A DNA stretch of 64,000 nucleotides from Perkinsus olseni (taxonomy: Eukaryota; Perkinsozoa; Perkinsida; Perkinsidae), in NCBI GenBank assembly GCA_013115135.1, contig JABANP010000150.1, positions 1 to 64,000 on the forward strand, read 5' to 3'. A program made the translations under genes and the position numbers. How positions within the stretch are numbered: the stretch's first letter is position 1; the number at the start of each line of letters is the position of its first letter. Below are positions 9,274 to 56,763 of the stretch, in pieces. The notes beneath the pieces were generated by a model. That model searched no databases. It was given only the letters and a program-made list of their open reading frames with translations, and was not told the DNA's origin.

Positions 9274-10230
9274 ATGGCTCAACAACAGAGTGGAGTACCT
9301 GAGTTCAAACTGCTGTTGGTCGGCGATGGTGGCGTTGGGAAGACTACCTTGGTGAAGCGTCATCTTACAGGAGAGTTCGAGAAGAAGTACATCCCGACGC
9401 TCGGGGTTGAGGTAAAACAACATCCATTTGCTTGACGACAGAAGGGGGAACTAATCTGACCTGTTTTGTATCTTGTATCTTTCAACTAAAGATACGTTTC
9501 ACTTCTCAGGTTCATCCGCTGAAGTTCATGACTAATTGCGGCGAGATCATCTTCAACGTATGGGATACCGCCGGGCAAGAAAAGTTCGGAGGCCTTCGCG
9601 ATGGCTACTACATCCAAGTGAGCGTCTTTCTCTCAATCACGCGTCAATCTCCTAATCCGAGTACCTGTCGTCATCCTTCAGGGCCAATGCGCCATCATCA
9701 TGTTCGACGTGACATCTCGCATTACCTACAAGAACGTTCCCAACTGGCACAGGGACATCGTCCGAGTGTGCGAGAACATCCCAATCGTCCTCGTCGGCAA
9801 CAAGGTTGATGTGAAGGACAGACAGGTAGGTTGATGAAGGTGAAGATCCGCCGGAACTCTGCTTCGGTGTTCAGGTCAAGGCTCGGAATATTCAGTTCCA
9901 CCGCAAGCGCAATCTGCAGTACTATGATCTCTCTGCTCGCTCCAATTACAACTTTGAGAAACCTTTCCTCTGGCTCGCAAGGAGGCTCACTAACCAGCCT
10001 CAGCTTGTTTTCCAGGTGGGTATAGTTCAGTGGGTAATTTTCTCGTCTTCCATTCGATAGAACGCGGGTTCTAATCCGAGGTAGAACATATTAGTATACC
10101 TTCTATCCTTCAGGGTGAGTTCGCCAAGGCCCCCGAGTTCCAGATCAACCCCGAGCTCGTTGCACAACACGAAAGAGAGCTCCAGGCCGCTCAGGACCAG
10201 GCCATTGATGACGATGATGACGACTTGTAA
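9274..10230 (+). CDS. RAN: Ran small GTPase
   Basis: Five exons, 9274-9411, 9510-9617, 9682-9825, 9875-10015 and 10114-10230, join in phase 0 to a 215-residue protein, the normal Ran length. It drives nucleocytoplasmic transport by cycling between GDP and GTP. Seen: P-loop GDGGVGKT (residues 17-24), switch II WDTAGQE, NKVD and SAR guanine-binding motifs, and the acidic C-terminal tail ending in DDDDDL that is specific to Ran. Introns are 98, 64, 49 and 98 bases. Intron 1 holds a GTATCTTT...AAAGATAC hairpin; intron 4 is almost entirely a tRNA-like sequence. The upstream neighbour is the retrotransposon, whose end lies only about 120 bases from this ATG. A CAG just before the start could be a trans-splice acceptor, but no leader is visible. 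Confidence 0.97.
10016..10088 (+). other. tRNA-like element forming Ran intron 4
   Basis: The intron (10016-10113) begins GTGGGTATAGTTCAGTGGGT, where TATAGTTCAGTGGG is an A-box (D-arm) match and GGGTTCTAATCC a T-arm/B-box match, with a degenerate anticodon arm around TCTTCCA between them. The donor GT is the first dinucleotide of the tRNA-like unit. Flanking exons are conserved Ran sequence, so the intron limits are secure. Confidence 0.8.
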
Positions 10231-10532
10231 ATCACCATTGTTATGCTCCTTCCCCTCTGGGGATATATCGATAATTGCAGAGAAGAGCTTCACCTCGAGA
10301 GGCATCATCATCATCATCATCGTAACATTCGCTTCACATACATCTGGCTCTTGGGTTTGAGAGGTTTTATTGGGGAGTCACTGGTGGGCGATCCAGGCTC
10401 GCCGAGTGGACGTCTTGGGGCAGGGTTCGGCCAGGGCTTCAGAGCCATCCTGGAAGATAGGCTGGCTCGCGTGGGATCTGTACCACCTTTGTCGCTTGGA
10501 CTTGGTCCGCGTGGTGATGATGGATTCGCCCC
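10231..10532. other. Ran 3' flank, no gene seen
   Basis: Probably Ran 3' UTR and intergenic sequence. It contains a short CAT trinucleotide run near 10302-10320. No ORF with recognisable motifs. Confidence 0.5.
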
Positions 10533-11624
10533 ATGAGGTTGGTTGATGTAGTTTCTTCTAACCGTCAATATATGAGTGACAAAAACTCAGGCCTAGAGAG
10601 TCCAACCAAATGTTCGAGACAGACTCTACGCCTACCCCCAGAAGCCTTCGCTGTGGTGACACCGCCGACCGGCGGCGATCTCCTGTCGCCTCTCAGTGCT
10701 CCGTCCGCGACTCCTGCTGCAACCAGCACTCCTGGAAGCGCACTATCATCGTTACAAAGAAGCTATGATATGCGCTGTGGGGAGCGGATTGCAGTGGGTG
10801 GGTTTGGTACGGTTTACACCGCTTTATGTCGAAGCTCCGGTGAGACTGTTGTTGTGAAGAACGTGAACAAGCCACCTTACGAAGGAAGGTTCAGCGAGAC
10901 GCCTAAGTGCGACGAAGAAGCTCAACTTCTTCGGATCTGCAAGGACCTCGGCTTGGATGACATCAAGTCCTGTGGTGGTGGTGTTACGACAGTCCTGGAT
11001 GCTTACTCTGACGTTGATTCATTTTATATGGTTTGCCAACATGAAGGAGAAGACCTACAGCAAATTGTCGCGTCGGGCGACGATGCTGACGAATGTCGAC
11101 AGTCGTTGAATTGGTCTCGAATAGCCCAATCGCTTTCGAGCACGCTGACTGCACTGCACCACTGCGGCATCCTTCACAATGACATACGACCAGAAAACAT
11201 CGCCTACTCTCACGATGGTGATTCCTCTTGGCATTCCACTGTTAAACTTATTGATCTCGGCCTTGCTTCAACCTGCCATTGCCCGGCGCATTCTGAGCTC
11301 TTGCATCACTCTTCTCGATATGCTGATGCTGGCGAGGGGGCTCGACGCGAAGCCATCCGACGTGCATGGGATAGCTGCACTGATGCCGACTTCAAGGCCC
11401 GCTGTGAGACAGAGCTCAGTGACGCTGCGGATATGGTCGAGAATCTTGCTGAGATTAACAGTGGCGAAGATCCAGTTGAATGCTCAACAACGAGCGTCTA
11501 CACACCCACTGTTAATACACCAGGTTGTGCGTCCTCAAGACAACAGTCATTTTCTACAGACTGTACCACCAACCGCGGAGTGAATGAGTCAACAGACTCA
11601 GTGCAGTTGAAGAAACTGGTATGA
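10533..11624 (+). CDS. Divergent protein-kinase-like ORF, N-lobe to activation segment
   Basis: A 363-residue ORF with a Ser/Pro-rich N-terminus (possible alternative start at 10572), then a kinase fold: glycine loop GGFGTVY, VVKNV with the ATP-binding Lys, HNDIRPENI in place of HRDLKPEN, and LIDLGLA in place of DFG. The C-lobe motifs (APE, DxWxxG) are not visible before the stop; CTG|GTATGA at the end may be a splice donor, so a downstream exon could exist, but I cannot find it. HND and DLG changes suggest an atypical kinase or pseudokinase. Substrate unknown. Confidence 0.6.
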   Translation: MRLVDVVSSNRQYMSDKNSGLESPTKCSRQTLRLPPEAFAVVTPPTGGDLLSPLSAPSATPAATSTPGSALSSLQRSYDMRCGERIAVGGFGTVYTALCRSSGETVVVKNVNKPPYEGRFSETPKCDEEAQLLRICKDLGLDDIKSCGGGVTTVLDAYSDVDSFYMVCQHEGEDLQQIVASGDDADECRQSLNWSRIAQSLSSTLTALHHCGILHNDIRPENIAYSHDGDSSWHSTVKLIDLGLASTCHCPAHSELLHHSSRYADAGEGARREAIRRAWDSCTDADFKARCETELSDAADMVENLAEINSGEDPVECSTTSVYTPTVNTPGCASSRQQSFSTDCTTNRGVNESTDSVQLKKLV

Positions 11625-26618: not shown

Positions 26619-26669
26619 CATGTTAACGTTTCTGACACCTCTAGCTCAGACTTGCCTTCACAACCCATT

Positions 26670-26709: not shown

Positions 26710-28112
26710 ATGCCTTCCTCCCGCTTCTGCTCCGTCCGAGGGCGTCGTCGACAGTGTAACCAACTTCCCTTGGTGGACGTAGCAAAAGCAAGTCCAGTGA
26801 GCGGCCCGCAGCGTTCTATTTCAGATTACTATTAGTTTTCGGCATCACGAAGTTGATCAGTGGAACGACAGGTCGCCGAGTAGCTCGAAGAGTGGCTCGG
26901 ATGCTCGGCAAAGATACTCAGGTAAGCTCACCCGACCCATCCTGTCGGACTGTGAGCGTAGGCACCTCCGAAGTTGGAGGGTCGGCGGCCCAGAGTTCCG
27001 TCGAGCGCCTCGAGCGATGCGAGCGAGACTTCCTCGGCATGTAGTGATGGTGAAATTAATGGAGAAGAGCTGAAGATGGTCATCGCCGTACGAATGGATT
27101 TGCAAATGGGCAAAGGGAAGGTAAAATGAGGGGGCTGGGAATTGAACCCGGGATGTTGAACCATCACTTTCGAAGGAACTAAGTAGAGTGAAGTCCTGAC
27201 TTATTCATCGCTTGGTTGAAGCGTTTGGCGCGTTTGGGGCGCGGAGGTCGGCTTAAAACTGGCTCTCTAGGGCTGTTTGATTGTAGAAGGGTTTGTTGCA
27301 TCTCCGATGCAACAAAAGACATCAGTTTGATTCGAACCTGGCTCGTCTGGTGATGGGATTTGTGCTCTCCCCTGTTAGATTGCAGCACAGTGCTGTCACG
27401 CGGCAGTTAGAAGCTACCAGAAGCTCTGCACTCCAAGTAACGCTCCGTCTTCAACTGCCTTCTCTATTCCATCGCTCCCTTCTCAGCCGGAGACTCTGCG
27501 AGTGATGCCTACTGGGATCGAGTCAGAGACGCCTGGGAGAACGGTGGCCAGAGGAAGGTCGTCGTCAAGGTGAGACTGCCGGCATAAGTTGTAGGGAGAG
27601 CCGCTTTCCGAAACACGATACGCTCTCCGCAAGCGTATCGTGTTATTCATAGCTCGCGATAAATATCATGCGAACTGTGGAAGGCTGTCAGAGTAAATGT
27701 GGTGAATTAGTAGCGAGTGAATGGTATGATGGGGAAATGGCTGATGGTGCACAAGATGCAGCTAAATGGTATTGTCAAACGCCCTGACACAACTTATGGT
27801 TTTGTACCACTACACGGTATGCAGTTTCAACGGCAACTAGCGGTTCTGTCATGGTAGTTGCGGCTTTTCCTATCCCATGTGCGTGCGTGCATACCACTCC
27901 TTTCGTGCAACCTCTGTTATCCTCCTAGGTACCAAACGAGGAGGTGTTGAACGAGGTCGTCGCTGCTGGTCGGGAGGCTGGCCTACTCGTCAGCACTATT
28001 CGCGATGCCGGTCGAACGCAGATCGCTGCTGGGTCCAAAAACCGTGGCAGCCTTCGGCCCAGGTCCCGAGAGTGCGATTGACGAAGTGACCGGACACTTG
28101 AAACTACTGTAG
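26710..28112 (+). CDS. PTH2: Peptidyl-tRNA hydrolase 2 (PTH2 type)
   Basis: Exons 26710-26753, 26825-26921, 26962-27120, 27379-27436, 27487-27569 and 27929-28112. The enzyme releases peptides from prematurely dropped peptidyl-tRNA. Seen: KMVIAVRMDLQMGKGK, IAAQCCHAA, a W-E-x-G-GQRKVVVK segment, and the hallmark DAGRTQIAAGS...GPGPESAIDEVTGHLKLL C-terminus. The N-terminus adds a hydrophobic stretch (LLLVFGITKL) that may anchor it in a membrane, as in mitochondrial PTRH2. The last exon has one extra A in a run of five A at about 28035 that breaks frame; with four A the frame runs to the stop, giving about 207 residues. Intron 3 holds an antisense tRNA-like element and intron 5 a 33-base hairpin. 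Confidence 0.85.
27127..27184 (-). other. tRNA-like element in PTH2 intron (antisense)
   Basis: On the minus strand CCCGGGTTCAATTCCC is a T-arm/B-box match, preceded by AGTTCCTTCGAAAGTG. The PTH2 donor GTAAAATGAG lies right at the acceptor-stem end of this unit. Flanking exons are conserved PTH2. Confidence 0.7.
27612..27644. repeat. 33-base perfect hairpin inside a PTH2 intron
   Basis: AACACGATACGCT and AGCGTATCGTGTT form 13-bp arms around a 7-base loop, within the 359-base intron 27570-27928. Confidence 0.85.
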
Positions 28113-37591: not shown

Positions 37592-37647
37592 GCAGGGATC
37601 GAACCGGGGGTCTTTCGGTTCTAGTTCGAGCCTTTACTACCGGTTCG
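37592..37647 (-). other. tRNA-like sequence upstream of eIF4E (antisense)
   Basis: The minus strand reads CCCCCGGTTCGATCCCTG (T-arm) preceded by GGTAGTAAAGG and an arm around CTAGAACCGAAAG. It ends just before the eIF4E ATG at 37650, so it is in the 5' leader or a 5' intron. Confidence 0.6.
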
Positions 37648-40321: not shown

Positions 40322-40401
40322 ACTCGATACTCCAGTAGGGAGGTTAAACGCACATACTTCCTTCGTGCAGAAGGTCCCTGGTTCTACCCCAGCCCGTAGC
40401 A
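40322..40401 (+). other. tRNA-like sequence, TIM44 3' flank
   Basis: TACTCCAGTAGGGAGG (A-box-like), GCAC...GTGC anticodon-arm pairing around ACTTCCTTC, and CCTGGTTCTACCCCAG (T-arm with four paired bases). The 5' acceptor strand is not clearly paired, so probably a tRNA-derived repeat rather than a working gene. Confidence 0.55.
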
Positions 40402-40599
40402 TAAATTAATAACAATAATTATTTAAATTCACCAGGGGCGCAGCAGCAGAGACCATCATAAACTAACGTCTTTTCCTTCTTCGTTTCGTCGTCACCTTCT
40501 CACCAGCAGGGCTGATTACCCAGGATGGCAATCTCTTGCATTCGCCACGGGAATTTAAGACCCTGAAAATGTTAATAATACCAGGTCCTTCCTAACGAA

Positions 40600-40683
40600 T
40601 TGGCGGAGCCCGCTCAGCCAAATCTAGAAAGTGGAGTTTTTACGGCACGCGAGGGTCCCCGGTTCGAATCCCGGTCCCGGCAT
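40600..40683 (+). other. tRNA-like sequence, TIM44 3' flank
   Basis: The strong 3' half CCCCGGTTCGAATCCCGG (perfect B-box GGTTCGAATCC) is followed by TCCCGGCA. The 5' half (GGCGGAGCCCGCTCAGCC) does not complete the acceptor stem. Confidence 0.55.
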
Positions 40684-40744
40684 TTTTCCGAAGAAATGAT
40701 TTTTGCGCATAACTCACGATGGCCACCTTGTCGGGAAGCTTCGC

Positions 40745-43662
40745 TTATTCTCCCGAGTTGCTGAGACATAGTGAGTCCGTTTGGTGTCCGAATTGGCTTC
40801 CTTTACGCTTTGGTCGGAGAGAAATAATCCGTACGCATGGACACTCGAAATGATGATCCGATTTGACATAATAAAGCTCCGCTCGCAAATAACAATCGCT
40901 CCACGGCCACCCCGCGTACAGGAGTGTTTGGTTCGGGGTGTTTCTGAACAGCCATTGCGTAGAAGACTTGTCGAATATCATCGATCGCTCCCTCCACGAC
41001 CTCGTCTGAACAACAACAACATCACAACAACGACGACACTGGAGGGCGCTGATCCCTTCTTACCCTTCTCATTACGAAGGCAGTTGATCTGCTGAGTGCT
41101 GAAGGTAAAGATAAAGCAAGGGGAGTCGACCTCTCCGCCAGACTTGGCACCCTTCAATTCCAAATCTTCCGGGCCCTGAACACCATAGCCGATCACTATA
41201 CCATCGGGAGCGCCTCAGCCGACCTGTAGAATTGTAGGGTCCAAACTGAGCTTCTGATTCTTCCTCGCTTCGATGGACGCGTTAACGGCGGCAAAGGCGG
41301 CCTCTCCACAGTGGAGTTTGAGATCTTCGGCGTCTCCCTGAGGCAGGAGAGGAATATCCTTCGCTGTGCGAGGATTATCTTCTCCCTCCACCAACCTCAA
41401 GGAACCACTTGATGAGGCTCGGCGCCACGACGTTCTCAACATCCTCCACCAGTTGGGAGAGTCGGAAATGAGGGTCTGTCTCCTTCATCTCTCGAATCGA
41501 CTGAGCTATCTCGGTCTCGCCAAATACCCTAAAATCAGCGGGAAGAATCGTCATACACAAAATGGTATTTAACGAACGCAGCGCGATCGAGGACTGCTCT
41601 CTCATCTCAACCACACTTGCAAAGACCACACCCGAAGCCGCAAACTTTCGAACGGGCTGTCTTTCGGGTTGCTCTTGGCGAGAAGTCTGTCAAATGGCCC
41701 CCAATCCATCAGAATTTTTCAGTATTCCTGCGAAGATACTCTTTCGTGGCGCGACGTAAGGATAGAATTTTTCCAATCATCGATTGGTAATTATCGTCGC
41801 ATGTGGATACTGATCAGCGTCAGCGGGCAACGGGCGGAAGCCCAGAGTGGAGTTTGGAAACTCACCTGTCGAGCATCGGGTTATCGAAGAATCCACCGAG
41901 GAATTTGGAGTCCTCAGAATCACTAGTGTTGAAGCCAAACCTCTCCCAAGTGGATCGCTGCTTGTCGGACACCACCAGAGCGTTGGCGTGGGGATGCTCG
42001 GGGATCGGTGCCGCCTGACCACAACATCATTAGGAACTCCCGTCGGCCAAGAGACGAAAATAGAAGCCCTGCAAAAGCGATGAGAACCATCTCTACTAAT
42101 GAGGGTGAACTATGGTGAGCGACACGAATGCGATCGCAAGCTGTGACCGGCAGACCCCTGCGGAAAACGGCATATTCAATAATTTTTCCCGATCACAGCG
42201 GAGCGTAGCATCTCCAAATTCAAGCATCGGATAACATCACGTCCGAGCCGACGTCGAAGTGCTTCTCCCGAGGACTCACGTCGGGGTCCTCCGCGGCTGC
42301 CTCTCGGATGGCCTCGTCTTTAGCTGCTTGGCGGGCCGCCTGAAAAGATACGTCGATGGGGACAGGAAGGATGGGAGGCGCACCTCTTGTGACCGATGGA
42401 ACTCCTCTTGTCGTTTGGCTGTGCCTTCCTTGCTTTCTTTAGTCATCATATTAACAAACGCTGTTGTACGGTCGAGAACCTGGTGGAGAAATGCACCTCG
42501 GGGGATCGAACCCGCGACCTTAGGGATAACTACCTTCACTCCAACCTTCTTAGCACTCTCTCCTGCCGACTTCATCCAATCAGGAACATGTACTAAAAGA
42601 AAGCTTATGACAGGCAGTCACCAAACAGTCGGCGTCCATAGTCGAAGTGACTCATCGTGCGTGCCAAAGAATCAGGAAAGACGCGCCAAAAATGAAGATA
42701 CTTCTGTGAAGGCCGAACCAACGAGCGAGAAAGTTGAACAACCACAGGGTCAGCTACCCGGACCACCGAAGCCACACAAACAACGATACCGAGACGACTA
42801 CGATCGCAATCCCGAAAGAATGCCATCTGAACGTGATGCCCTAGATGCTGTCATCGACGAGCCACTGCCATTGATACTCCTCCTCGCCGGTGCTCCCATC
42901 GACCCCCCATTACATTGGCTCAATCTCGATGGCTTGGCGGCGGTGCTGCCTTCCTTCGCCTCATCAGCGTGTGGCATCTGTTTCCGGAGCTCTTCAAAAA
43001 GATTCTTAGTACGCTGCCTGAGACAAGCATCGCCCCGTGATGGAAATACCCAGTACCCCTCCGCCAGTACTGTGCGTTCGACATGTGTTGCCGCATGGCC
43101 CTCATCTTAGCCTCCTGGGCCTCTGCACGCGTACGCAGCTGCTCACCTGGTATCAGATACCTGCATAGCAACACCAACGATCATCGTCACGCGCCACGAA
43201 ATTAGAGCTCCAACAGCCGGCCATCCCTGACCAAGCTAGGCAACACCTCCGCTGCGTGAGAGCGAATTATTCTTATCGGAAATGATAATCAGTGAAAGAC
43301 CACACGAGATCCGCGGCCCTGTTGTTCCGAACTCCGTCACTGCGCCACGAAATTATTACTACCCTCGTTTTCGTCTTGCTCATATCATCCAAGGCCTTCT
43401 TCAACTCAGGGTCGCTCTCGGCGTCTTTTCGAACTTGCTCCATGACCTGCGGATTGTAAAAAACGCCGGGAGGAATTGAACCCACGACCTAGGCAATGCT
43501 AGTCAGCCGCTCTACCTGTCGGATAAACGAGGACTCGTTTCGCCGAGGCATGACGAAGACTGGCGGCGACCGGGCGGTGCGACCAACTATTGCACTACTT
43601 GCGGCCAACTGACTTGCGAATGCCGCCGACCCAGACCGCATCATACAGGCCTTACTGAGCAT
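40745..43662 (-). CDS. TIM44: TIM44-like mitochondrial import motor subunit
   Basis: Many-exon gene. The first exon (43516-43662) is Arg/Ser-rich like a mitochondrial presequence (MLSKACMMRSGSAAFASQLA). Exon 2 (43363-43446) reads VRKDAESDPELKKALDDMSK. Later exons give SKEGTAKRQEEFHRSQ, AARQAAKDEAIREAAAEDPD, then the TIM44 core: ALVVSDKQRSTWERFGF, GGFFDNPMLDR, FGETEIAQSIREMKETDPHF, LVEDVENVVAPSLIKWFLE and EGAIDDIRQVFYAMAVQKHP. TIM44 tethers mtHsp70 to the TIM23 channel at the matrix face of the inner membrane. Two introns (43447-43515 and 42480-42533) are sense tRNA-like sequences and two others hold the M1 repeat. The 3' end is approximate. Confidence 0.75.
41742..41756 (+). repeat. M1 repeat, partial copy, TIM44 region
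   Basis: TTTCGTGGCGCGACG matches the consensus core with a two-base deletion. Confidence 0.5.
42487..42548 (-). other. tRNA-like element in TIM44 intron (sense)
   Basis: Intron 42480-42533 runs GTAGTTATCCCTAAGG...CGCGGGTTCGATCCCCCG...CCACCAG. The T-arm/B-box GGGTTCGATCCCC is strong; the D-arm is truncated at the donor. Flanking exons read GESAKKVGVK and VLDRTTAFVN. Confidence 0.75.
43185..43204 (-). repeat. M1 repeat, TIM44 intron region
   Basis: Exact complement of TAATTTCGTGGCGCGTGACG. Confidence 0.9.
43335..43354 (-). repeat. M1 repeat at a TIM44 intron donor
   Basis: Minus strand: exon ...ACGAGG then GTAGTAATAATTTCGTGGCG, so the repeat starts within eight bases of the donor GT (43362). 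Confidence 0.85.
43464..43530 (-). other. tRNA-like element forming TIM44 intron 1 (sense)
   Basis: Intron 43447-43515 starts at the D-loop: exon ...CCGACAG then GTAGAGCGGCTGACTAGC, with GTGGGTTCAATTCC (B-box) about 20 bases before the CCGCAG acceptor. CAGGTAGAGC is the usual D-arm sequence of tRNAs, here doubling as exon end and splice donor. Confidence 0.8.
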
Positions 43663-44551: not shown

Positions 44552-47500
44552 CTACTCACTGAAGACTGCGACACTTGCAAGCACTTGCAAAACTTGCATT
44601 TTCTCCAACAATCTCAATAACCTCTTCCTCAAAATATCCACCAGGTCATCCATAGCTTCCGCAGTGAAATAAGATACGCCCTCACTCTCACTACGGTGCT
44701 GGTTAAAGTAGGTTCTCCCATCGGAAGATATCGCACACCCGACGACCACCAATACCCCACTGAGAATGACGAGGGACTCCCTCCCAGCGAAGCACGCTAA
44801 ATGGAAGGCTCATGACAGCCAGCAACTGGAATGAATACTTTATCGACCAGTAAGGCAGGAAGGACATCCCACACCTTTTGCCGCCCGAAATGACGCCGTT
44901 TTCCATTAGAACATTTCCGCTAATTCCCATCACGATCCCCTCCGACAGAGAAATCACAGCCTTCTAACCTGTCAAGATGTCCCTCCGCGGAAGCCGCCGC
45001 CAGGAAGGCCTCCACGATGTAATCAAACGCACAGTTGGTAACCTCCACTGATGAACTCATCTGATCGCCATCAACTGCCCCTACAGTGACAAGGCGAAGA
45101 TATCCTACTGCGCACAGCGAAGATTTATGCCACACCCGCCAACGATCCATTCTCGATTCCCAAGCCTCTGCGTCGTAGTAAGTTCGGAGGAGCTCCGCGA
45201 CCGCAGAGCCTGCCCAAGGCAAACATAAAATAACCACTAGCCGCCAAAAATTCAATTTTCCGGCAAAAATTTTCAGATTTTGTCTATGAAACCGCGATAT
45301 CAAGGCCCTAGCGCAAAATGGTGCGATAATAAATAATTTTTGTGAGCCACGCGAGTCAGAAGAAAATGGTAATCTCGCCCCCTTAGCAACTCGGCATGTA
45401 CTGCTGTCCAACGAAATTGATGGTAACGAGTAGAAGCCGGCAAGGCGGAAGGCTGATACTACCCGGTGGTGGCAACTTGCCAATGGATGCTGAGGCGGTG
45501 AGGAAGGCGGGCTCTGATGACATATCTTAATAACTTGACAGATGCACGGGTCAACCTAAGATATCTCCCATTAGATCCACTTCAACTCGATACCTCGCCT
45601 CCAATAGAACAGCAACAACAAGGAGAACACATCTGAGCATGTATATTTCACTGGGAAGAAATCATCGCGAATCTTGCAATCTTGCTCCTCCTTGACAGAT
45701 TCTCTCCGCGATCAACCCCAACTCTCTATTGCCTTCGGAACCCAACGCCCAGTTGCCACCCACACAAGCGTCGTCCAGAAAATTACCTTCCGAAAAATTT
45801 TCTGGTGGAAAATTTCCGCTTTTTACTACATTTTTCAAGAATTTTCCGTAAAATTTCTCCTCCTCGCTGCCCAACCGCCCCCACAGCTCGCACCTGAGAT
45901 TATTAGTTTCCGAAAACGTCACGCGCCACAAAATTACCGAAATTGAAGATCTTTTGCCTCTCGCCAGGGCCGACCCGAAGATACCATATCCAACAACATC
46001 CAAGAACCTTTGCAAGCCGTCATTGCCAAGTTGATTATTATCAAAGCTAACACGCTCGATGGCCGCAGACCCTCCCTCATCCTCAGCCAGCATCAGCAGC
46101 TGAACCTGCCTACTGTGATGACGGGAGGTGGTGAGAGAGCAATCCCTCGACCGACTATAAGATATCAATACCGGGAGCTCCCCTACGACCGCACGGCGAA
46201 GGAATTTTATATTCACTTGTCTCCCCAATCGACCTATTCTCGGCCATGCGCCGACGCTGGGCTTGATGCAACTACTCTCTCGATCGTTTTATATTATTGT
46301 ATACACCAATGTGCATACCACTCCACCTCCAACTTCCCAACAAATGCTACGTAACACCCCCTGATACACCAGCGACTAACACTCAGTACCGAATCTACAC
46401 TACGAGGTCTACCATCACCGAAGAGCTTCACGCGCCAACGCCATCCGGTAAACGCCTTCGAGGTCGCCTCTACCCGCACTACCATGCTGCCGAGTATTTC
46501 TCCGCCCTCAGCTCCGAGGATTCCCGCAACGGGCCACATTGAGGTGATGCAGACGAGGCAAGGATGAGTCCTCCGCTGATCGAGAGGTTGTCGATCTACT
46601 CCTGACAAACCTTGAGCCGGCCTGCCAAACAACACCGTTTGGCCTAGTGGTAGAGTGCTCAACCGCCATCACATAGATCCCGGGTTCTACCCCACCTATT
46701 ATCTCTTTAAATGCATCATTTCCCATCTCGCTATTGTCGCTCAGATCCAACCTCTTCAACTTTGGACACCTTCCCCTCAAAAAACTTCCCACCACCCCAC
46801 CGCAGTCTGCCGTCAAACGCCTGCCAAAATCATCGATCGAAACTCGCTTCGCTCCGCTAAGAAAATATCCAAGCCACCTATCCTACACAGCGCTGAGGTT
46901 GAGGACCACCAATTGAGGATAGTCTCCAGATAGCAAAGATTGTAATCTCCTTCGACCAACAAACGCGCTGCTTCTGGAGACGTCCAGGATCTCCAAGGTG
47001 GTATCTGACCCGACATCCTTGCTCATCACGGAAAAAAAGATACGCCATGCGGCGCTTATTAGCTTCTCATCGAATCGTGTTACTCCCGAATACATGCCGA
47101 GAAGAAAACGATCAAAATCGATCACGCGATCGATTTCCAGCCTCGACGTGGCCCGTCTTATTACGGCTGCTCTCCCCTATCACCGACAACATCTCTTCCG
47201 GTGACAAATTGATAAACCTCAGTTTCTTGAGGCGTATCTTAGGTTGATCCTGGCCTTCCACGAAGAGTCTAGATTCCTCCACACTCTCTTCCGCATTCTC
47301 CGACATCACCTCAACATATCGCCGCACTGTAAGGTCCAACTAAAGCCGACAAGATTCCCACCGGGCGAGCGAGATTTACATTCGAACAAACTGAGTTTTT
47401 CGCAATATTATGCCACCTCATCGCATCACTTACTACCTCTTCAAGGGTCGATGACGCTCGCTTGATTATCTCTCCAAGCCACCCAAGATACTCCCGCCGG

Positions 47501-49076
47501 GCGGATATCAAACTCCCACAAGATTCCATAGTAACCGCCAACTTCTTCAACTTGGGCAGACGGCCACGAGAACCGGTAAGGAGATGATGGAGAGCGTCAA
47601 CGCTCTGAGGAAGATAAAAAATTTTTCCCGGAAAAATCCACTACAGAACCCACTACTTGAGCGGCTGCAAAGTTGACGGTGACATTCTCCCTCTTTCGCA
47701 AATGTCGCAAAAATAATAAATTGTTTTTTCGCTAAATTTACCCATTTTTTCCTATTTTCCCAAAATTTGTCCGAATAAAATTTCACCACAATACCTCCCG
47801 TACAATATCGTCTCTAAAATCAGTCGAGCTCAAGAAGGTAACCCGACCGGCAGGCTACATTATACACTACGTAATAAACCATCACCATCTCTTAGCGGAG
47901 CGAAGCAGTCCACATTTCTACTTTTAAATGGGCACTCTGGAGGAGTTGCCAGTCGAGACGCATCTTCATGCAGTCCTCGTCTTCTATAAAGTGAACAACT
48001 TCCCACCTTCCATCTAACCAATATTGAGGAAATGCAAGATTGCAAGATTTTCCTCTATTACTATCATCCACGCCGAGCCTTCAACATGAGACGCTCGCCT
48101 GGCCCAGCCTGTAGAAGTCAGCTGAGGTCATATACTCCGCTACCACCTACACCCACGCTCTAGCAAGAGCAAATCTTGCAATCTTGCATTTTCTCAATTT
48201 ACCTCGGCAGCCATTCTAAATGCCTGCTGCAAAAGTCCTTCTCCGAACCGACACGCCCACTCAGACTTCGCCTGAAATGACGTAGAAGAGCAATCCTCAA
48301 CGACAACGAAAAAAATTTCACACAAAAATCGGACCAAAAATTTCCCTCACCGTTCGCTGCCTTCAGCTGAATTTTACTACTCAGCAGCAAGAGAAGAAAC
48401 AAGATCTACACAAATGAGAATCCTCAAGTCAAGTTCGTGTATAGCGTAGCTGCTTGTCATAATATAAATGAAAAAAAATAAATTTTTCCCGTCATAATTT
48501 GCGGGGGATGGTGACGAGTTTTTCGAGCAAGATGGAGGAGCTCGAGGGAAAAGCGTATAACAACGCTGAGCAATGAAACCCTCACAAAAATCTGAAAATT
48601 GGGGAAAACTGTGAAGTTTTCCGGAAAAACATGAAAACGCAAAAAGATACAATACGCCCAATTTGGATGATTATGATGCTGAATACAGCTGACCCAAGAA
48701 CCTCCCCCCTTCTCGGGTGTACTACTCACCTGTTTGAGGGCCCCTTCAAGCAACAAGACATCCCTCCTCTCTAGTGCCACTCTCTTCATCGTAGCCTCCA
48801 GCTGCTGCCGAGCAGTGGTTAATAACTGTACCGTAGCATAAGGATGATAACAGGGCAACGCAGTTTGAACAATCTCCCATTTTTGTTGTGAAGAAAATTT
48901 CGACCATTCACCCTCGCGCGCCACGAAATTATTACCTTCTCCTTTCGCTGTATATAATCGGCCAAGTCCTGATCACTGATGGTCCGTATCGGATGATTGC
49001 CGTCCAGCAGCTCGGTGAGGGCCTCCGGGAGGCCGTAGCGGCGGCGCTCCGATACAGTCGGGAGAGGTGGCTTCAT
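44552..49076 (-). CDS. Leucine-rich-repeat (RNI-like) protein, many exons
   Basis: Exon 1 (48936-49076) encodes 47 residues starting MKPPLPTVSERRRYGLPEAL; exon 2 (48730-48873) reads IVQTALPCYHPYATVQLLTT. Further exons carry LRR consensus pieces: LPKLKKLAVTMESCG, IRLKKLRFINLSPEEML, TTLEILDVSRSSAFVG with YPQLVVLNLS, CPKLKRLDLSDNSEMGNDAF, AIERVSFDNNQLGNDGLQRF, and a last exon EAMDDLVDILRKRLLRLLEK. The repeats resemble ribonuclease-inhibitor-type LRRs, so a protein-binding scaffold. Introns are rich in M1, M2 and other short repeats and one antisense tRNA-like element. The boundary with the downstream gene is uncertain. Confidence 0.55.
44669..44685 (-). repeat. M2 repeat (AAGATACGCCCTCAC)
   Basis: The minus strand reads GTGAGGGCGTATCTTATTTC, which supplies a GTGAG donor for a possible 30-base intron ending CGGAAG. 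Shares AAGATACGCCCTCAC with the copy at 54591. Confidence 0.6.
45917..45937 (-). repeat. M1 repeat at an LRR-gene intron donor
   Basis: The intron reads GTAATTTTGTGGCGCGTGAC... and ends TAATAATCTCAG. The GT of the repeat is the donor itself. Confidence 0.85.
46629..46694 (+). other. tRNA-like element in LRR-gene intron (antisense)
   Basis: The plus strand reads GGCCTAGTGGTAGAGTGCTC (A-box) ... CCCGGGTTCTACCCC (B-box), almost a full tRNA length. The gene runs on the minus strand: intron 46622-46695 starts GTGGGGTAGAACCCGGG, that is, at the outer end of the reversed T-arm. Exons on either side read GNDAFKEIIG and AGSRF. Confidence 0.75.
46845..46861 (-). repeat. Short repeat CTTAGCGGAGCGAAGCG
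   Basis: CGCTTCGCTCCGCTAAG here recurs in direct or reverse form at 47891-47906, 49582-49595 and 50323-50339, all in or beside introns. Confidence 0.6.
48172..48190 (+). repeat. Short repeat AATCTTGCAATCTTGC
   Basis: The same phrase occurs at about 45670-45685 and reversed at 48033-48050; a related CTTGCAA run is at 44573-44600. All are within introns of the LRR gene. Confidence 0.55.
48914..48935 (-). repeat. M1 repeat at LRR-gene intron 1 donor
   Basis: Exon 1 ends ...CAAAGGAGAAG-type codons (QRKEK), and the 62-base intron 48874-48935 begins GTAATAATTTCGTGGCGCGC. Confidence 0.9.
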
Positions 49077-49711: not shown

Positions 49712-52265
49712 CTATACCACCTTCGCTTCGCCGTTTCTCCGATCATTCTTGTCGCTCTCTTTCACCCGTAGGAATCCCGATCGGTCCGCACGCGGCATTT
49801 CTATCCTGAAATGAGAAAATATGCCGCATGGAAGGATCGAACCAGGGACCTCCCTATATGAAGACCAGCACACGAACCTGTTGACGTATCCCACCTCAAA
49901 GCACCCGTTGTACTGCTCCGTTTCACTGTAGACGCGTGCACTACGACCTCACACGGCGTCCTCAACTGCGTCAGCTTCTCCTTGATGATACACCTACCGC
50001 GACCATCCAGGATCTAGGGGAAGTTATGGTATGCACGCATGCACAAAAGATACCTGACGTAATTGGGTTGAACGTCCACGTCTATCAGGCTCGTCTCCAG
50101 GAAAGCCGGCACATGTATTTCCATGATCACCATTCCAGGCGTACCGAACTCATCAATATGGAAGTTATATTTACCCTCATTACACTGCCGTATCTAAACC
50201 CGAAGGTCCCTGGTTCGAACCCCAGCGCCGTCAACAAAAAAGAGGCCACTACCTCCCCTCGCTGATTCATAGGCTCCGGCACTCTACGCGGTGGTTTCGG
50301 TTCCAAACCTATTATTAAACATTCTTAGCGGAGCGAAGCACCTCCTTTTACCAAGCCTTTTCTTCTCCCTTTTCTCCTTCTCCTCCTTAGCCGCCGCTTG
50401 CTCTCGGTACATCTCCAGACGGGACTCGACCGTGTATGCATCTGCAAGATGGAAATAATAGTTTCAACCATTACTCTATTGTGTCAGTAACTCAACTTAT
50501 TTTTTCCACACCCATAGAAAATTTTCTCCTTTTTTCAACTATTTCGTTTTTTCCATATTTTTTCAATTTTTCCATTTTTCCCTTTTTTCCCACATTATTT
50601 CCAAATTTTTTTCCATTTACTTTTTTTCCCTATTTCCCATATTTTTTTCCTATTTTCCCGTCTTTTTTCCATATTATTCAATTTTCTCCATATTTGTTTT
50701 TTTCATATTTTCCAATTATTTCCTTTTTTTATTTTTCATGACGATCCCAATTCTTTTATATTTATGTTTTTTTCGATATTTCCCAACTTTTCTATCTTTC
50801 ACTACTCGTTTACACTATTACAAACATCATTCGAGAGCAGCAACAGCTCACTTTCAAAACGATGGTGATAGAAGAGGTTCTCACTTCGGCAAGATTATTA
50901 CCAAAATTTCACCTAACTATTACTGGGGCGACACCGATCCCCGGGGAGCACCATCGACCGAGGCGATCAATATCAATACCGTAACTTCACTAAATCACAA
51001 GTATCCGAGTCATGCCATCGATACTTTGGTCACGTAATTGCTTTGTGATCCCTCCGTTGATTCAAAAGATATCTCACTATCACACCCTAGTACTCGACGA
51101 GGTCGAAAGATTCTCCTCATCAGTCTCTTCAGTAGGTCCAGACAATCAGGAATAACGTCTCGTTGATGTATAGATTTGTCGGGTGCGACCAAATAATCAA
51201 TACCACACCTTCACCAAATCCTGTTACCTTCATGCGGTTTGATGCCATGCTCTCTTTCGTAGTTCTTCTTCTTTAATAGAATAATCCGACAACTTCTCCA
51301 ACTCCTTTTCAAGCATCGGAAGATCTCTTTTGGCCTGAACCATAATCGACCTAAGATATTCTTCCGCGTGCGCCCCAAGACCTGGATCCTCTCGCTCGGA
51401 GTAACCAGAGTGCCGTCCAGCTGCAGCAAGCCAGGCAGTCTCGCCACCACGTACTTCCTAAAAAGGAAGTCACCACTCGAGCACGATTAGCGGAAGTTGT
51501 GGTATGAGATATCACTACCTCGCCTTCGGCCAGTCCATGCAGGGGTTTCCCAGAAGATACAAATCTTCAAGATTATAATTACACTGAAACGGCCAGCGAA
51601 GAATCTATCATGTGCATGCGTGCAAAAGATACCTCCAAATTAGTAATGGAATCTTTCAAGTTCTCAATGTCAATGAAGTTCACAGTCAAGTCCAGCTTCC
51701 TCAAACTCTCACAACGCTCCAATCCTAACAAGAACACCACCAGCTCCTACTTCCGTCACGCGCCACGAAATTACTCCTCCCAAGGAGCTCAGAGATCTTC
51801 GCGCCAGTCATTTGACAACATTTCAAAGTTCACCACGGTGCACCCGGGTTCGATTCCCCCAGCTACTACCCTCGATTTTTTCTATATTATTCACAGCAAC
51901 GTTAAGATATTCCAACTCCTTGAGTTTGTTAAGATTCTCCAACCTCCCAATGACGTTGTTCTGCAGCAGAAGTATCTTGATCCTCCGGCACCGGTTCCCC
52001 AGGCACTTCTCGATTTTTTCTATCTCTTCTTGGTGCAGTGCTACCTGAAAGATGGTCCATACCATCCACAAAGAATTTCGTGGCGCGCGGTCAGAACGGA
52101 GAAGTCCATCCGCAGTGTCAGCTCATCCGTATCGTGCAAGAGTCGAGCTAAGATACCACCTTGAAGTATCTTTCCAACCTCATCTATTACCTCCTCGAGA
52201 TCAGCCAAGATTCCCTCGTTATGCTCCGCGCGTTTCCTAATCAACTCCTCCGTTAGCGGTGGCAT
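49712..52265 (-). CDS. DNAAF11: Dynein axonemal assembly factor 11 (LRRC6/TILB)
   Basis: Exons 52191-52265, 51870-52044, 51633-51724, 51519-51583, 51382-51457, 51334 downward, then others ending at 49712. It helps pre-assemble axonemal dynein arms in the cytoplasm. Seen: MPPLTEELIRKRAEHNEG start, ALHQEEIEKIE, LRR segments (IKILLLQNNVIGRLENL, LEYLNVAVNNIEKIEG, LRKLDLTVNFIDIENL, LYLLGNPC), the LRR cap RLPGLLQLDGTLVTPSERIQ, a charged linker VESRLEMYREQAAAKEEKEK, then the CS-like domain (DVDVQPNYVR, TPCEVVVHASTVKRSSTTG). Introns carry three tRNA-like elements and two M1 copies. Mid-region exons (about 50.4-51.2 kb) are only partly resolved, and exon 6 may hold a frame error. Implies a motile flagellum. 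Confidence 0.88.
49815..49894 (-). other. tRNA-like element forming the last DNAAF11 intron (sense)
   Basis: Intron 49806-49894 starts GTGGGATACGTCAACAGG (acceptor strand and D-arm) and continues through TCTTCAT (anticodon-loop-like) to CCCTGGTTCGATCCTTCC (T-arm), ending TTCTCATTTCAG. As in Ran intron 4, the donor is the first base of the tRNA-like unit. Flanking exons: STTGAL and RIEMPRADRSG. Confidence 0.8.
50195..50232 (+). other. tRNA-like 3' half in DNAAF11 intron (antisense)
   Basis: AGGTCCCTGGTTCGAACCCCAGC is a T-arm with four to five paired bases. The minus-strand intron ends just beyond it at ATACGGCAG (50185). Confidence 0.6.
50480..50800 (-). repeat. T/C-rich low-complexity tract in a DNAAF11 intron
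   Basis: Roughly 300 bases of irregular TTTTTTCC repeats on the plus strand (GGAAAAAA on the gene strand), unlike the balanced composition around it. It has no fixed unit length. Confidence 0.7.
51754..51774 (-). repeat. M1 repeat in DNAAF11 intron 2
   Basis: The minus strand reads GTAATTTCGTGGCGCG then TGACGG, a perfect consensus in the middle of intron 51725-51869, which also holds a tRNA-like sequence. Confidence 0.9.
51838..51866 (+). other. tRNA-like 3' half in DNAAF11 intron 2 (antisense)
   Basis: GCACCCGGGTTCGATTCCCCC is a T-arm/B-box match. The gene-strand donor GTAGTAGCTGGGGG lies at the outer end of this arm. Confidence 0.65.
52074..52092 (+). repeat. M1 repeat in DNAAF11 intron 1
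   Basis: AATTTCGTGGCGCGCGGTC inside intron 52045-52190, opposite orientation to the copies that form donors. The same intron also has AAAGATAC...GTATCTTA inverted. Confidence 0.85.
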
Positions 52266-52369
52266 GAAGGACAAAATCGACAACCCCTGCCGGAGACCGT
52301 CCACTGACTAGAATAACCCGAGAGGCACTCAGAAGGAGAGAGAAAAGCTACATACGACGAGTCAGACAG

Positions 52370-53009
52370 TCACATGCCGAAGACTCTGTAAAGCAGTGCA
52401 AAAAACATCGCCGCGCCAGCTCCGAACATCGCGCTGTTACCTGAGGGTTGGGGAGGTCTCCGCGACGACCGAACGATGAGTCTCCCAGAAGGCCCACCTA
52501 GCGCCCTCATGAGGGTCTCAGGCTTGCCGCTACCGATGGGAGTGGTTGCATTAGACCTAGGATGCCACCAGTACCTGATAAATATGCTCTTGCGAGGATT
52601 TGAACCCGCGACCTCCCTCGTATGAGCCAAAGCCTCTACCGTCCCGACTAAAGTTGAGTATTACACCCCTCCGGAGTTGACATCTCGAATTGGCAGCCAA
52701 GAATCTTCCTCTTTCGCCTTATCGACCACAGACTGCGGGATGCTGTCCGCTGAATAGAGCTTGTTGGAATCCTCAGGGGGAGCCCACTGACAAAGTTGGG
52801 GGAGGAGTGGTATGAGCGCACCCCCACCTCGATACTACCGGTTGGTTCGCCTCCGGAGGGGCCTTGTACGTGAGCCCTCCTTTGATATCACCGCTCGACT
52901 TCCTCTTCGTACAGAAACTTCTCCCCTCCCCCCACAGAGAAATCGACCGGTTGAAAGAACAGCCGGTCAGAAGCCGCAAACCTGACGGGACAAAATCCGG
53001 GTAGATCAT
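52370..53009 (-). CDS. Small tail-anchored membrane protein, unknown
   Basis: Exons 52839-53009, 52665-52786 and 52370-52574 join in phase to 165 residues. Middle part: KGGLTYKAPPEANQPWAPPED and YWWHPRSNATTP. The C-terminus is a single hydrophobic segment, AMFGAGAAMFFALLYRVFGM, with no N-terminal signal, so a tail anchor. The second intron (52575-52664) is a tRNA-like sequence. Lies 104 bases upstream of DNAAF11 on the same strand. No family recognised. Confidence 0.6.
52583..52648 (-). other. tRNA-like element (Met-CAT-like) forming an intron (sense)
   Basis: GTCGGGACGGTAGAGGC (D-arm), CTCATAC (CAT-containing anticodon-loop-like) and GCGGGTTCAAATCCTCGC (T-arm) in tRNA order and spacing. The intron 52575-52664 starts GTAATACTC about 20 bases before it and ends ATATTTATCAG. 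Confidence 0.75.
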
Positions 53010-53018
53010 AGCAAGCCT

Positions 53019-53859: not shown

Positions 53860-56763
53860 ATGAGATCAAAGCGAGCTTTACTCCGCCATGTGGGGCTGCT
53901 GTCTGCTGCCTCCGTCATCGCTCTCACACTATCCAGGGGCCAGCCGGTCCGAAGATACCCCAACCATGGAGCGAACGTAAGAGGTTAACCTATCGTCAAA
54001 AGATACGCCCAAAAGATTCGTTTAGCAGCCCCCTGGGTGAGATCAGCGCTGCTGTTGAAGGGAAGCTGCAGGAGACCATCAGCCTGTTGGTGGACCAGAA
54101 AATAGCTGAGGAGCTCGAGGTAAACTAAGATACGCTTTTTAGAAATCTTCGCTGTGCGCAAGTCTCGGAATGGTTAGGGGTTGAAGGAGGAAAATGCCCG
54201 TCTGCGCGAGAAAGTTGAGGAGCTGGATGATAACCGAAGGTACACTTGCATATCTTGGGTTGAAGCGAGGAAGATACAAAATAGGTCAAGGTGACAGCCT
54301 TCGAATTCTCAGGGCGCTCGAGGAAGACTCCAACCGGCGACACTTGTACTTGAGTGAATCGCAGCGGACCGACACCATCACAGGGGAGCTAATGAGCACC
54401 ATGTGGAGGATCCTAACAGGCGCCATGATCATGTTTATGCAGGTGGGACGACGACTGCTGCTTCCGATCCAGTACCACACTTCGCCCTCCTCAGGCCGGT
54501 TTCGCTATGCTGGAGGCTGGCTCGGTGAGGGTCTACAACGTCCAAGCTATCCTTATGAAGAATCTTTTAGACGTCTGCATCAGTAACTAGCATCAACCTA
54601 AGATACGCCCTCACTTAGCGCTTATCAGGCCCAATGATTTGGTGGCTGATGGGCTGGGGCCTCGCCTTGGGTTACACAACCGACCCTGTTACCGGCGAGC
54701 TCACCAGTGGCTCCCAGTTCAGTGGTAACCGAAAGGTCCCGGGTTCGAATCCCCGCGACGACACCATCCAATCTCAGGTGGGAGTGGTTATGCTGGTACT
54801 GGCCTTACTGAGTACTGCGTTGAATTCGACCCGGCCACCGGAGACTGCATCGACAACGCGCCGGCGCCCCTCGGCAGACCCAAGTTCAGCCCGGACGAGT
54901 TCTTCTTCTTCTGGACATTCTCCGCAGCTGCTTCGACCATCGTCAGTGGTGGTGTCGCCGAACGAGTAACGACAATCCTCCATCATCTAATTTCGTGGCG
55001 CGTGACGATTCACTCTATCAGGTCCGCTGCTCCTCCTACTTCCTCTTCTCCTCCCTCATGTCTGGGTTCATCTACCCCGTCCTGGTCGCCTGGCTCTGGA
55101 GCGGCCACGGATGGCTCAGCAAACCAGCCGACGGAATCGACGCGAGCTTCTATGATTTCGCCGGTAGCAATCCCCTCCTCGAAAGCCGCTGAACAGAAGC
55201 GTCTGATACCTCAGGGTCGGGTGTGGTCCATTTGACCGGAGGCATCGCAGCCTTGGTTGGAGCTAAGATACTCGGCCCGAGGAAGGGACGCTTCGACGAA
55301 ATGGTGGACCAGACAGAGTTCGTTCCGCATTCAATACCCCTAATTGTGCTTGGTAAGCCGTAGGTCCCGGGTTCGATCCCCAGGCCCTCCTATTTCAGGC
55401 ACCATGATCCTCTGGTTTGGATGGATCGGCTTCAACGCTGGATCCACCAGCACCTTCGAGTCCATCGTCGACTCCAACAAGGCCGCCCGTTCTGCCATGA
55501 ACACCGTCCTCTCGGGAGCCGCCGGTAGGATGCGCCCCTCCTTCGCCGCTGACAGCAGGCCCCTCCCTTCAGGTGGCTTCACACTCTTCATCATCCGTTT
55601 GGTCTTCTTCAACATGTACGACGTCGCCGGGGTCTGTAACGGCTGCCTGGCCGGGCTGGTGGGCTGCTCGGCTACCCTAGAGGGCTCTTACTGCTACTTC
55701 AGGTGTCCATCACTGCTGGGTCGGCTAACGTGACCTCATTCAGTGCCATCATCATTGGCATCATCGGTGGGTCCCTGTAAGTACATCAACTTATCATAAG
55801 GAACTGAAGGAGTTTTTATCAGCTACCAGACAGCTTCCCGCATGGTTGCCCAACGTCGCATTGACGATCCGATCGACGCCTTCGCCGTCCACGGCATGGG
55901 TGGCATCTGGGGTTCCATCGCCTGCGTCCTCTTCGACTACGGCAGCGGATTCAGGTTAACAGCAACAAGGGTGTTGGCCTACTGCCCATTCCCCTTCTTT
56001 CAGTGTATTCAGTCAAGGTGAAATCACCCGGATCGGACCTAACAACTACGAAGCCGCTGTTAGCGTCGGCACTCAGCTCGGGGTAACAACCTAAGATACG
56101 CCTCACCGGGACGATAGTCGTCTGGGATGATCCGCGCATTTCCGAGGAGTCGCGGAATTATACGAGGCACGAGTGAAACGGTTGCAGCCTTGAAGAGGTT
56201 GACCCTTGCATTTCACAGTTGTAAAAGATACTTCATTTCTACTGGGGATAAATATCTTTACCGTAAAAGTCTTTTCATAGTGGAAACGGAATTATACCCG
56301 TCTGCCATGCTCGATTCTACGAGACACGTGAGGAACGTCTATCAACAACAGCGTTCATGATAAATTAGAATAATTTCATTGGAATCTTATTTTCTGTTTC
56401 TTGCCAGGTCAACATCCTCGGCATCCTAATGATTATACTATGGTCTGGTTTCTGGAGCTCCCTGGTCTTCCTCATCTTCCGAAGGGTAACCAATCTCCTC
56501 ATCGCCCCGTGGTCTTAATTTTCTTTTTCCAGTTCGACCTCCTCCACGCCACTGAAGAGAATGAAGTTTTCGCTCCCGACGACTACATGCAGTTCTCCTC
56601 GAGAAGGAAGCCCGGGGCCGTCCACCCCGATGACGTATCGGATTTCTCTGAAGGGAAGTCTAACAAATCCAGGGTGTCCGACTCCAACAGAAACAACAAC
56701 AGTCGGGCGTTGAAGGAGATGATTGACGGGTCGAGAGAGGAGTTGGATAATGGTGATGATTAG
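53860..56763 (+). CDS. AMT: Ammonium transporter (AMT/Mep/Rh family)
   Basis: Sixteen exons: 53860-53976 (uncertain), 54029-54119, 54178-54239, 54313-54442, 54495-54582, 54629-54724, 54778-54965, 55022-55163, 55215-55352, 55399-55524, 55573-55658, 55703-55776, 55823-55954, 56004-56082, 56408-56485, 56533-56763; about 618 residues. Moves ammonium across a membrane. Hallmarks: MFMQAGFAMLEAG, NLLDVCI, SGYAGTGLTEYC, WTFSAAASTIVSGGVAER, LTGGIAALVGAKILGPR, LGTMILWFGWIGFNAGS, and DDPIDAFAVHGMGGIWG with the pore His. Before TM1 it carries an unusual N-terminal extension with a coiled coil (EENARLREKVEELDDN). Introns are mostly 43-74 bases. Two hold tRNA-like sequence, one M1, several M2. Frame at exon 2 needs one C of five removed. 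Confidence 0.93.
54591..54614 (+). repeat. M2 repeat in AMT intron
   Basis: CATCAACCTAAGATACGCCC then TCAC, inside the 46-base intron 54583-54628. Confidence 0.8.
54706..54766 (+). other. tRNA-like element across an AMT exon-intron junction (sense)
   Basis: CCCAGTTCAGTGGTAACC (A-box) then CCCGGGTTCGAATCCCCG (perfect B-box). The donor is inside the D-loop, exon ...TTCAGTG then GTAACCGAAAGG; the intron 54725-54777 ends CAATCTCAG. Exons on both sides are conserved AMT (SQFSG / GSGYAGTGL). Confidence 0.8.
54988..55007 (+). repeat. M1 repeat in AMT intron
   Basis: Exact TAATTTCGTGGCGCGTGACG within the 56-base intron 54966-55021, between GGVAER and VRCSSYF. Confidence 0.95.
55357..55387 (+). other. 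tRNA-like 3' half forming an AMT intron (sense)
   Basis: Intron 55353-55398 (46 bases): GTAAGCCGTAGGTCCCGGGT then TCGATCCCCAGG, ending TATTTCAG. The T-arm/B-box fills the intron; the D-arm is missing. Confidence 0.75.
56086..56107 (+). repeat. M2 repeat in AMT intron
   Basis: AACAACCTAAGATACGCCTC then ACC, right after the donor GTAAC of intron 56083-56407. Confidence 0.8.

Follow-up and report, generated by a model that had tools for sequence, protein, structure and literature searches.

Can spliceosomal introns be built from sequences that resemble tRNA? The question is raised by a 64-kb stretch of the genome of Perkinsus olseni, a mollusc parasite: the first 64 kb of contig JABANP010000150.1 (C58; hereafter the window), in an assembly of 61.5 Mb and 968 contigs. 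A sequence-only reading of the window had proposed that eleven introns in at least seven genes were formed from mobile, tRNA-derived sequences. We find that introns carrying tRNA-like sequences are present, and genome-wide, with the likeness narrowed to a short unit that resembles the 3′ end of a tRNA. Related units recur as introns in unrelated genes.

A dispersed unit with the spacing of a tRNA 3′ end

A B-box or T-arm-like sequence is found in all eleven of the named introns. Three B-box patterns match 7, 11 (G[GA]TTC[GA]ANYCC) and 7 times in the window and not once in its reversed sequence. Genome-wide, there are 4,071 copies of the tRNA B-box GGTTCGANYCC and 284 of its reversed control (a palindromic variant can count twice), and GGTTCGAATCCC occurs 562 times against 11. 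For unit alignment, intron statistics and motif counts we used a 264-kb sample, which is partly motif-chosen: 20 ten-kb stretches of it were selected around GGTTCGAATCCC matches, here called anchors. These stretches hold 60 matches to G[GA]TTC[GA]ANYCC, anchors included, against 1 when reversed. B-box words also stand near the top of the 11-mer count in the non-coding sample, a ranking that is not independent, the 20 stretches having been chosen for the word.

The unit extends beyond the B-box. A B-box followed after nine bases by CATTTT has 313 genomic copies, against 9 for a spacing of eight bases, 11 for a spacing of ten and 0 in reversed controls. A nine-base gap is the arrangement of tRNA genes, in which the 3′ strand of the T-stem, the seven-base acceptor strand and the discriminator A lead to the terminator of RNA polymerase III (Pol III). 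The tRNA-3′-end-like unit is thus found throughout the P. olseni genome, well beyond the window. Aligned in tRNA orientation, 63 B-box matches of the sample (anchors included) give the consensus AGGTCCCG-GGTTCGAATCC-nine bases-CA-T run: AGGTCCCG is conserved 5′ of the B-box, and on its 3′ side a stretch of constant length, 11 bases with C-A at the end, leads to the T-run. The tRNA-typical bases C48, C72 and A73 are present in 89%, 73% and 63% of these matches, and each T-run position is T in 46–70%. Conservation is confined to positions from about −8 to about +26, so that about 35 nt are common, and inspection of the aligned units by eye revealed no terminal repeats. Two matches are real tRNA-Arg genes and were removed for most later counts, leaving 61.

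Units are concentrated in introns

The sequence-only reading had staked its proposal on an excess of tRNA-like sequences in introns, and the 264-kb sample contains that excess. Introns were predicted by our own gene finder, which combines five-base coding statistics with generic splice matrices and has no tRNA information; it is crude, and was trained on the very DNA that it annotated. It accepts GT-AG introns only, and hence is no test of non-canonical splice sites, and it imposes a minimum intron length of 35 nt (5th percentile of predicted introns, about 43 nt). Among 39 strict matches not used for selection, 29 lie in predicted introns, 8 in predicted coding sequence and 2 in intergenic sequence, against the 34% of bases that predicted introns occupy (P = 4e-7). 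The bias holds among non-coding matches alone, with 29 of 31 intronic (P = 3e-5), and a looser pattern places 44 of 72 matches in predicted introns. Introns of at most 80 nt take up 6% of bases and contain 12 of the 39 matches (P = 2e-6). At least two unit introns, 42480–42533 and 54725–54777, were mislabelled as coding by the gene finder, an error that works against the measured enrichment. Multiplying the genome-wide excess by 29/39 extrapolates, from a small and partly motif-chosen sample, to a few thousand unit-bearing introns in the genome. Both orientations occur, as had been noticed: with anchors included, 23 of the 42 intronic matches are antisense and 19 sense, 4 of the 42 being palindromic and ambiguous in orientation.

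Homologous proteins support the splice junctions

Thirteen unit-bearing introns in six genes (Ran, PTH2, AMT, DNAAF11, eIF3c and an SNF2 helicase) have protein-supported junctions. All have GT-AG boundaries and leave an intact protein after removal, and on this evidence from homologues they appear to be spliceosomal introns. The Ran intron (10016–10113, + strand), predicted by the gene finder, carries a sense unit with the B-box-like GGTTCTAATCC at 10067–10077; the spliced protein aligns through QLVFQ/GEFAK to Ran chains in PDB (E 3e-17). The PTH2 intron (27121–27378, +) has an antisense B-box at 27138–27148 and a second antisense B-box-like site at 27328–27338, and its junction MGKGK/IAAQC matches PTH2-family structures (best E 9e-6); the gene finder gives different boundaries, 27121–27286.

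The two AMT introns (+ strand) are both sense. That at 54725–54777 was missed by the gene finder; its junction QFSG/GSGYAG is gap-free in 3 of 6 homologues, all close Perkinsus proteins, and gapped in the other 3, one of which is a P. marinus paralogue. The 46-nt intron at 55353–55398, given the same boundaries by the gene finder, has a junction (IVLG/TMILWFGW) that is gap-free in 5 of 6 homologues, with a nearby gap in the sixth. DNAAF11 (− strand) has three such introns. One is sense (49806–49894; B-box 49833–49843) with a junction gap-free in 7 of 7 homologues. An antisense one, which had been read as ending at 50185, is corrected by the gene finder and the homologue alignment to 50194–50252 (QRGE/IRQCNEG, gap-free in 6 of 7 with a nearby gap in the seventh). 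The third, 51725–51869, holds an antisense unit at 51847–51857 together with a second motif at 51754–51773, and its junction KIEG/LERCES is gap-free in 7 of 7. Outside the window, eIF3c (on L046) has five unit introns, one with a diverged B-box, and one intron of the second motif family described below, and a single Pfam match runs through the junction of the SNF2-type helicase (on L037).

Every junction of AMT, DNAAF11 and eIF3c is gap-free in the closest P. olseni and P. marinus counterparts. The three DNAAF11 junctions are also gap-free in transcript-derived proteins from other organisms (P0124 and P0134); a distant eIF3c homologue (P0243) has gaps near five of the six junctions. The spliced AMT product is 98% identical to a P. 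olseni protein and 88% identical to a P. marinus one, and the best matches of DNAAF11 (84% identity) and eIF3c (92%) are from P. olseni; these P. olseni database proteins, some of them named hypothetical, probably come from gene prediction, and none of the protein support is direct proof of splicing. A Pfam check covered eight spliced products: proteins 1 and 8, which are short, had no match, the matches of proteins 3 and 6 stop before the junction and that of protein 4 ends about at it, none of these being counted, and protein 5, which is eIF3c, was counted from its homologue alignment instead.

The junctions proposed by the sequence-only reading fared unevenly. Protein support covers those in Ran, PTH2, AMT (two) and DNAAF11 (49806–49894 and 51725–51869), and the gene finder recovered four proposed introns to the base (43447–43515, 49806–49894, 51725–51869 and 55353–55398). 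An open frame supports two more. Intron 1 of a putative TIM44 gene (43447–43515, −) is sense, with a unit running from the D-arm remnant GTAGAGC through TTTTTT, and one frame is open across its junction, FIRQ/VMEQVRKDAESDPELKKAL; the intron of a tail-anchored gene (52575–52664, −; sense, B-box 52596–52606, remnant GGTAGAG) likewise has one open frame across its junction, the gene finder giving 52575–52827. Support is weaker for putative TIM44 intron 2 (42480–42533, −; sense, B-box 42502–42512, boundaries from the sequence-only reading), where the frame is open both unspliced and, from shortly before the junction on, spliced. The boundaries of the LRR-gene intron (46622–46695, −; antisense, B-box 46683–46693 on the + strand) are uncertain, the gene finder giving 46644–46751. 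Of the further copies reported, three are present, at 37595–37605 (−, inside a predicted 144-nt intron), 40380–40390 (+) and 40661–40671 (+, within a longer dispersed repeat), the last two predicted to be intergenic; none was found at 16.4 kb with the patterns used.

The unit is probably the intron itself

Is the unit the intron, or a guest in it? The lengths of 7 of the 13 supported introns are only 46, 47, 47, 51, 53, 58 and 59 nt. In these seven the unit spans 29–35 nt, leaving a remainder of 11–24 nt. The span here is one of position and not of identity, some introns keeping 18–22 of 26 fixed consensus positions. From the small remainder we conclude that the unit is probably the intron itself rather than a guest.

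A contiguous, 71–72% identical paralogue on C112 (L055) lacks exactly the 46-nt AMT intron; by eye, it is also without two neighbouring introns that carry no unit. A gain in one copy and a loss in the other both fit. An eIF3c copy at the end of contig C44 (L056) has units at the same places and many indels, and is uninformative on empty sites; a search for a second copy of the AMT region returned short matches only. Two loci, L001 and L002 (on C118 and C121), are near-duplicates, 96% identical over 3 kb; with the indel-rich L056, the assembly seems to keep some haplotype or unpolished duplicates.

A second motif family in introns

Introns of P. olseni also carry a motif without likeness to tRNA. 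TAATTTCGTGGCGCGTGACG has 410 genomic copies at up to one mismatch and 0 in the reversed control. At up to three mismatches 15 of 18 matches lie in predicted introns, in both orientations, and 39 aligned matches contain no longer common element. Its sites in the window are 54988–55007 and 58837–58856 on the + strand and 43185–43204, 45917–45936, 48912–48931 and 51754–51773 on the − strand. Protein support extends to two introns of this family, the one in eIF3c and AMT 54966–55021 (+), which surrounds the core at 54988–55007; the end of the latter was read from the sequence, and its junction GVAER/VRCSS is gap-free in 6 of 6 homologues. The gene finder labelled its core as coding. The introns of P. 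olseni may be assembled in good part from short repeats, of which the tRNA-like unit is the most recognisable.

Other repeats were noted alongside. A longer dispersed repeat contains the unit (40585–40757; L036 4867–5067; L040 4971–5131; L045 4972–5142), with pairwise matches of about 100–180 bp at 70–77% identity; it is possibly a SINE (short interspersed element) and the source of the units. A dispersed hairpin-like sequence, GTATCTTAGGTTGAA...AAGATAC, lies at 54249–54290 and on L041, L042 and L051–L054, several copies being followed by AAAATAGGTCAA-like sequence. The dispersed motif AGCGGAGCGAAGC, at 46858, 47893, 49593 and 50326, has 36 matches in the sample at up to two mismatches and is locally repeated at L042 7194–7397. 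Elsewhere in the window, 62227–63311 is a tandem array (37 bp × 29.6 copies, 98% matches), and about 12.8–25.4 kb holds up to four related block copies, the longer blocks 68–98% identical, which are probably a tandem gene family.

Origin of the unit

The proposed derivation from tRNA finds support in the primary sequence and the exact tRNA spacing but not in secondary structure. ARAGORN detected no tRNA in the window, and cmscan gave no RF00005 match at E ≤ 10 either there or in four unit-bearing stretches, where its matches were at chance level (mascRNA and 11 bases of tmRNA in one stretch, a plastid 5′UTR family in two). Across the 264 kb, ARAGORN found the two tRNA-Arg genes only, against 61 other B-box matches. 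When the genome was searched with the tRNA family, 63 of 7,618 first-look candidates received a score; all 63 are strong matches, and the search is uninformative on weak ones. The D-arm or A-box that had also been described is a feature of a minority and not a general one: 7 of 61 units have the remnant GGYAGH at the distance expected, against 0–4 of 61 (mean 1.7) in nine control windows, and 4 of 61 match a stricter pattern, against 0–3 of 61 in six. Acceptor bases 66, 67 and 69 are nearly random, 91 distinct strings containing 82 distinct hexamers. True tRNA gene clusters and tandem arrays occur on L001–L030 (Arg, Thr, Ile, His and others), many of them without an immediate T-run.

The reading that we favour, with a probability of roughly 45%, is that very short retroposons of Pol III type, derived from tRNA, turned into spliceosomal introns, and that the units are what remains of them. 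The source would be the 3′ portion of tRNA genes, with the variable loop, the B-box, the acceptor strand and the Pol III terminator; spread through the genome would most likely have gone through reverse transcription of Pol III transcripts, and copies landing in genes would have become, or would form most of, spliceosomal introns. This reading would entail descent from a tRNA or tRNA-SINE, RNA-mediated copying, and the creation of new introns rather than the rebuilding of old ones. Reverse transcription of Pol III transcripts would be expected to yield copies that keep the 3′ end and vary in how far they reach in the 5′ direction. Reverse transcriptase domains are abundant in the genome (150 scored matches of 421 candidates). 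One of the 150 is in the window, where a 1,756-aa open frame (2459–7729, −) contains RVT_1 at 5582–6058.

Several observations weigh against it. First, the stems of a tRNA do not pair more often than by chance: outer T-stem pairing amounts to 65 of 183 pairs, against 77.2 ± 5.3 when shuffled, and anticodon-stem pairing to 74 of 305, against 75.0 ± 7.3. In 34 units with an intact 3′ end (14 from the sample and 20 further copies) T-stem pairing is 44 of 102, against 41.9 ± 3.7, and anticodon pairing is again lacking. Complements of the acceptor strand are no commoner at the tRNA distance upstream than elsewhere, in agreement with the 34-unit set and with the earlier remark that no clean acceptor stem is present. 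Second, many units lack the terminator end. Only 14 of 63 matches have CATTT at the exact offset, as do 2 of 12 measured introns with protein support, the PTH2 intron and the eIF3c intron of 47 nt. Most protein-supported units thus lack the full CATTT end, which lowered our confidence both in retroposons and in the RNA-mediated introners considered below. Third, units resemble one another (13.5 of 19 flank positions, a figure that has no shuffled control) more than nine real tRNA isotypes (10.8 of 19; shuffled, 8.1). Fourth, no source element for the units was found, and the second motif family is equally intron-borne yet not tRNA-like, so that tRNA likeness may not be what matters. Finally, mobility itself stays conjectural. 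Target-site duplications, a mark suggested by the sequence-only reading, are absent at the splice sites of unit introns: in-register identity is 0.31 for sense (n = 12) and 0.23 for antisense units (n = 14), against 0.25 (n = 425), although sense units have a slightly longer run across the junction (2.75 against 1.90). The insertions could then be old, or have come by another route, such as capture during break repair. Duplications of this kind, terminal inverted repeats or both are common, if not universal, in published introner families. No polymorphic unit was seen either, none of three large indels among fetched duplicate loci being a unit, and the intronless AMT paralogue is the one empty site.

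The strongest competitor, which we hold to be possible but the less probable account, is that units inserted into pre-existing introns, or replaced parts of them, with coding insertions purged. It sits well with the 24 of 42 intronic matches that lie in predicted introns longer than 80 nt, with the intergenic matches and with the lack of target-site duplications spanning splice sites. The 11–24 nt outside the unit in seven supported introns, however, seem too little for an older intron, a judgement that rests, the 35-nt minimum being imposed, on the 5th percentile of about 43 nt and on the sizes of the supported introns; and the 46-nt AMT intron is missing exactly from the paralogue, though loss could explain this.

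Two further readings are both unlikely. In the first, the units would be RNA-mediated introners, formed when Pol III transcripts with a tRNA 3′ end were reverse-transcribed into exons across the genome; the transcripts may have been chimeras made by template switching at the T-loop, and the T-run would have served some sense insertions as a ready polypyrimidine tract. Template switching would explain why the two halves are each tRNA-like and yet unpaired with each other. Linkage is strong within the halves and weak across them; between positions 49–51 and 63–65 it reaches z = 2.4 (P = 0.01) for all 81 units and z = 1.3 (P = 0.11) for the 64 unit-like ones. This chimerism is a lead only, linkage in the right half perhaps being in part a trivial effect of T-loop alignment. 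Some sense insertions do have the T-run where a polypyrimidine tract belongs, such as CATTTTTTCAG at the end of a predicted intron on L049, but this role is impossible for antisense insertions, and the T-run is lacking from several of the supported sense introns.

In the second, the unit would owe nothing to tRNA, and its likeness to a B-box and terminator would be fortuitous, in a short DNA motif or at one end of an unrelated mobile element. The unpaired stems, the near-random acceptor bases 66, 67 and 69 and the CATTT end kept by a minority all fit this idea, as do other over-represented short motifs of non-coding DNA, three of which, when aligned, have little or no longer common element. 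It leaves unexplained the coincidence of B-box, C48, C72-A73 and an immediate T-run at exact spacing, and the A-box remnants of a minority. Ordinary decayed pseudogenes of a large tRNA gene set, without special relation to introns, are very improbable: tRNA clusters and arrays do exist in the genome, but there are only 2 ARAGORN tRNAs beside 61 other matches in the same 264 kb, the matches are biased to introns, and T-stem pairing is lacking although most conserved flank positions stand at about 60–90%.

Three simpler identities were also considered. Intact tRNAs were rejected, ARAGORN and cmscan being negative and T-, anticodon- and acceptor-stem pairing not above chance, and a single SINE family was rejected as the whole story, with nothing common outside about 35 nt and very diverse acceptor bases. 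Decayed copies of many intact tRNAs are disfavoured: had the units begun as such, their T-stem pairing ought to be about as well preserved as the flanking positions.

Relation to known systems

The unit introns are closest to introners by mode of action and to tRNA-derived retroposons by sequence, with defining features of both failing or left open. A functional tRNA gene has a cloverleaf with paired T, anticodon and acceptor stems, which the units do not form, and a tRNA-derived SINE has a common body or tail beyond its tRNA part, of which the units show nothing outside −8 to +26. A SINE of this kind also has an internal A-box and B-box; the units have their B-box by the way they were selected, and an A-box remnant in 7 of 61. 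Tailless tRNA/SINE retropseudogenes of mammals are truncated tRNA-related retroposons without an A-tail; like them the P. olseni units would be truncated relatives of tRNA, and unlike them the units form introns. A catalase intron described by Iwamoto in 1998 is reportedly a SINE-type insertion.

In the introner survey of Gozashti et al. 2022 (PMC9860276), which groups introns by sequence similarity, dispersed related sequences likewise form short introns, mostly in aquatic organisms and with diverse recruitment of splice sites, and some families also lack target-site duplications; the large-scale intron sources described so far are said there to be mostly consistent with DNA transposons. P. 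olseni units differ in sharing only about 35 nt at low identity and in their tRNA 3′-end spacing, and the main text of the survey does not contain the words Perkinsus, tRNA or SINE. The introner elements of Amoebophrya (PMC7789003) are likewise invasive intronic elements in a parasitic alveolate, with inverted and direct repeats and non-canonical splice sites, in contrast to the GT-AG boundaries of the protein-supported unit introns here. Intron gain by transposon insertion in plants (PMC3443670) also derives an intron from an inserted element, but as single events and not as a genome-wide class; Iwamoto 1998 on catalase genes is among the works cited there. Among the matches listed in a search of open-licence literature, there was no description of tRNA-like introns in Perkinsus, a weak form of absence, and 'Perkinsus' with 'introner' returned the Amoebophrya paper only.

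Implications

The origin of new spliceosomal introns is a long-standing question. A survey that relies on overall similarity to group introns could overlook unit introns, which have about 35 nt in common at low identity. If introns with tRNA 3′-end spacing form a large class in an alveolate, that would speak for an RNA-based route of intron origin, for which tRNA-like transcripts would be an ever-present raw material.

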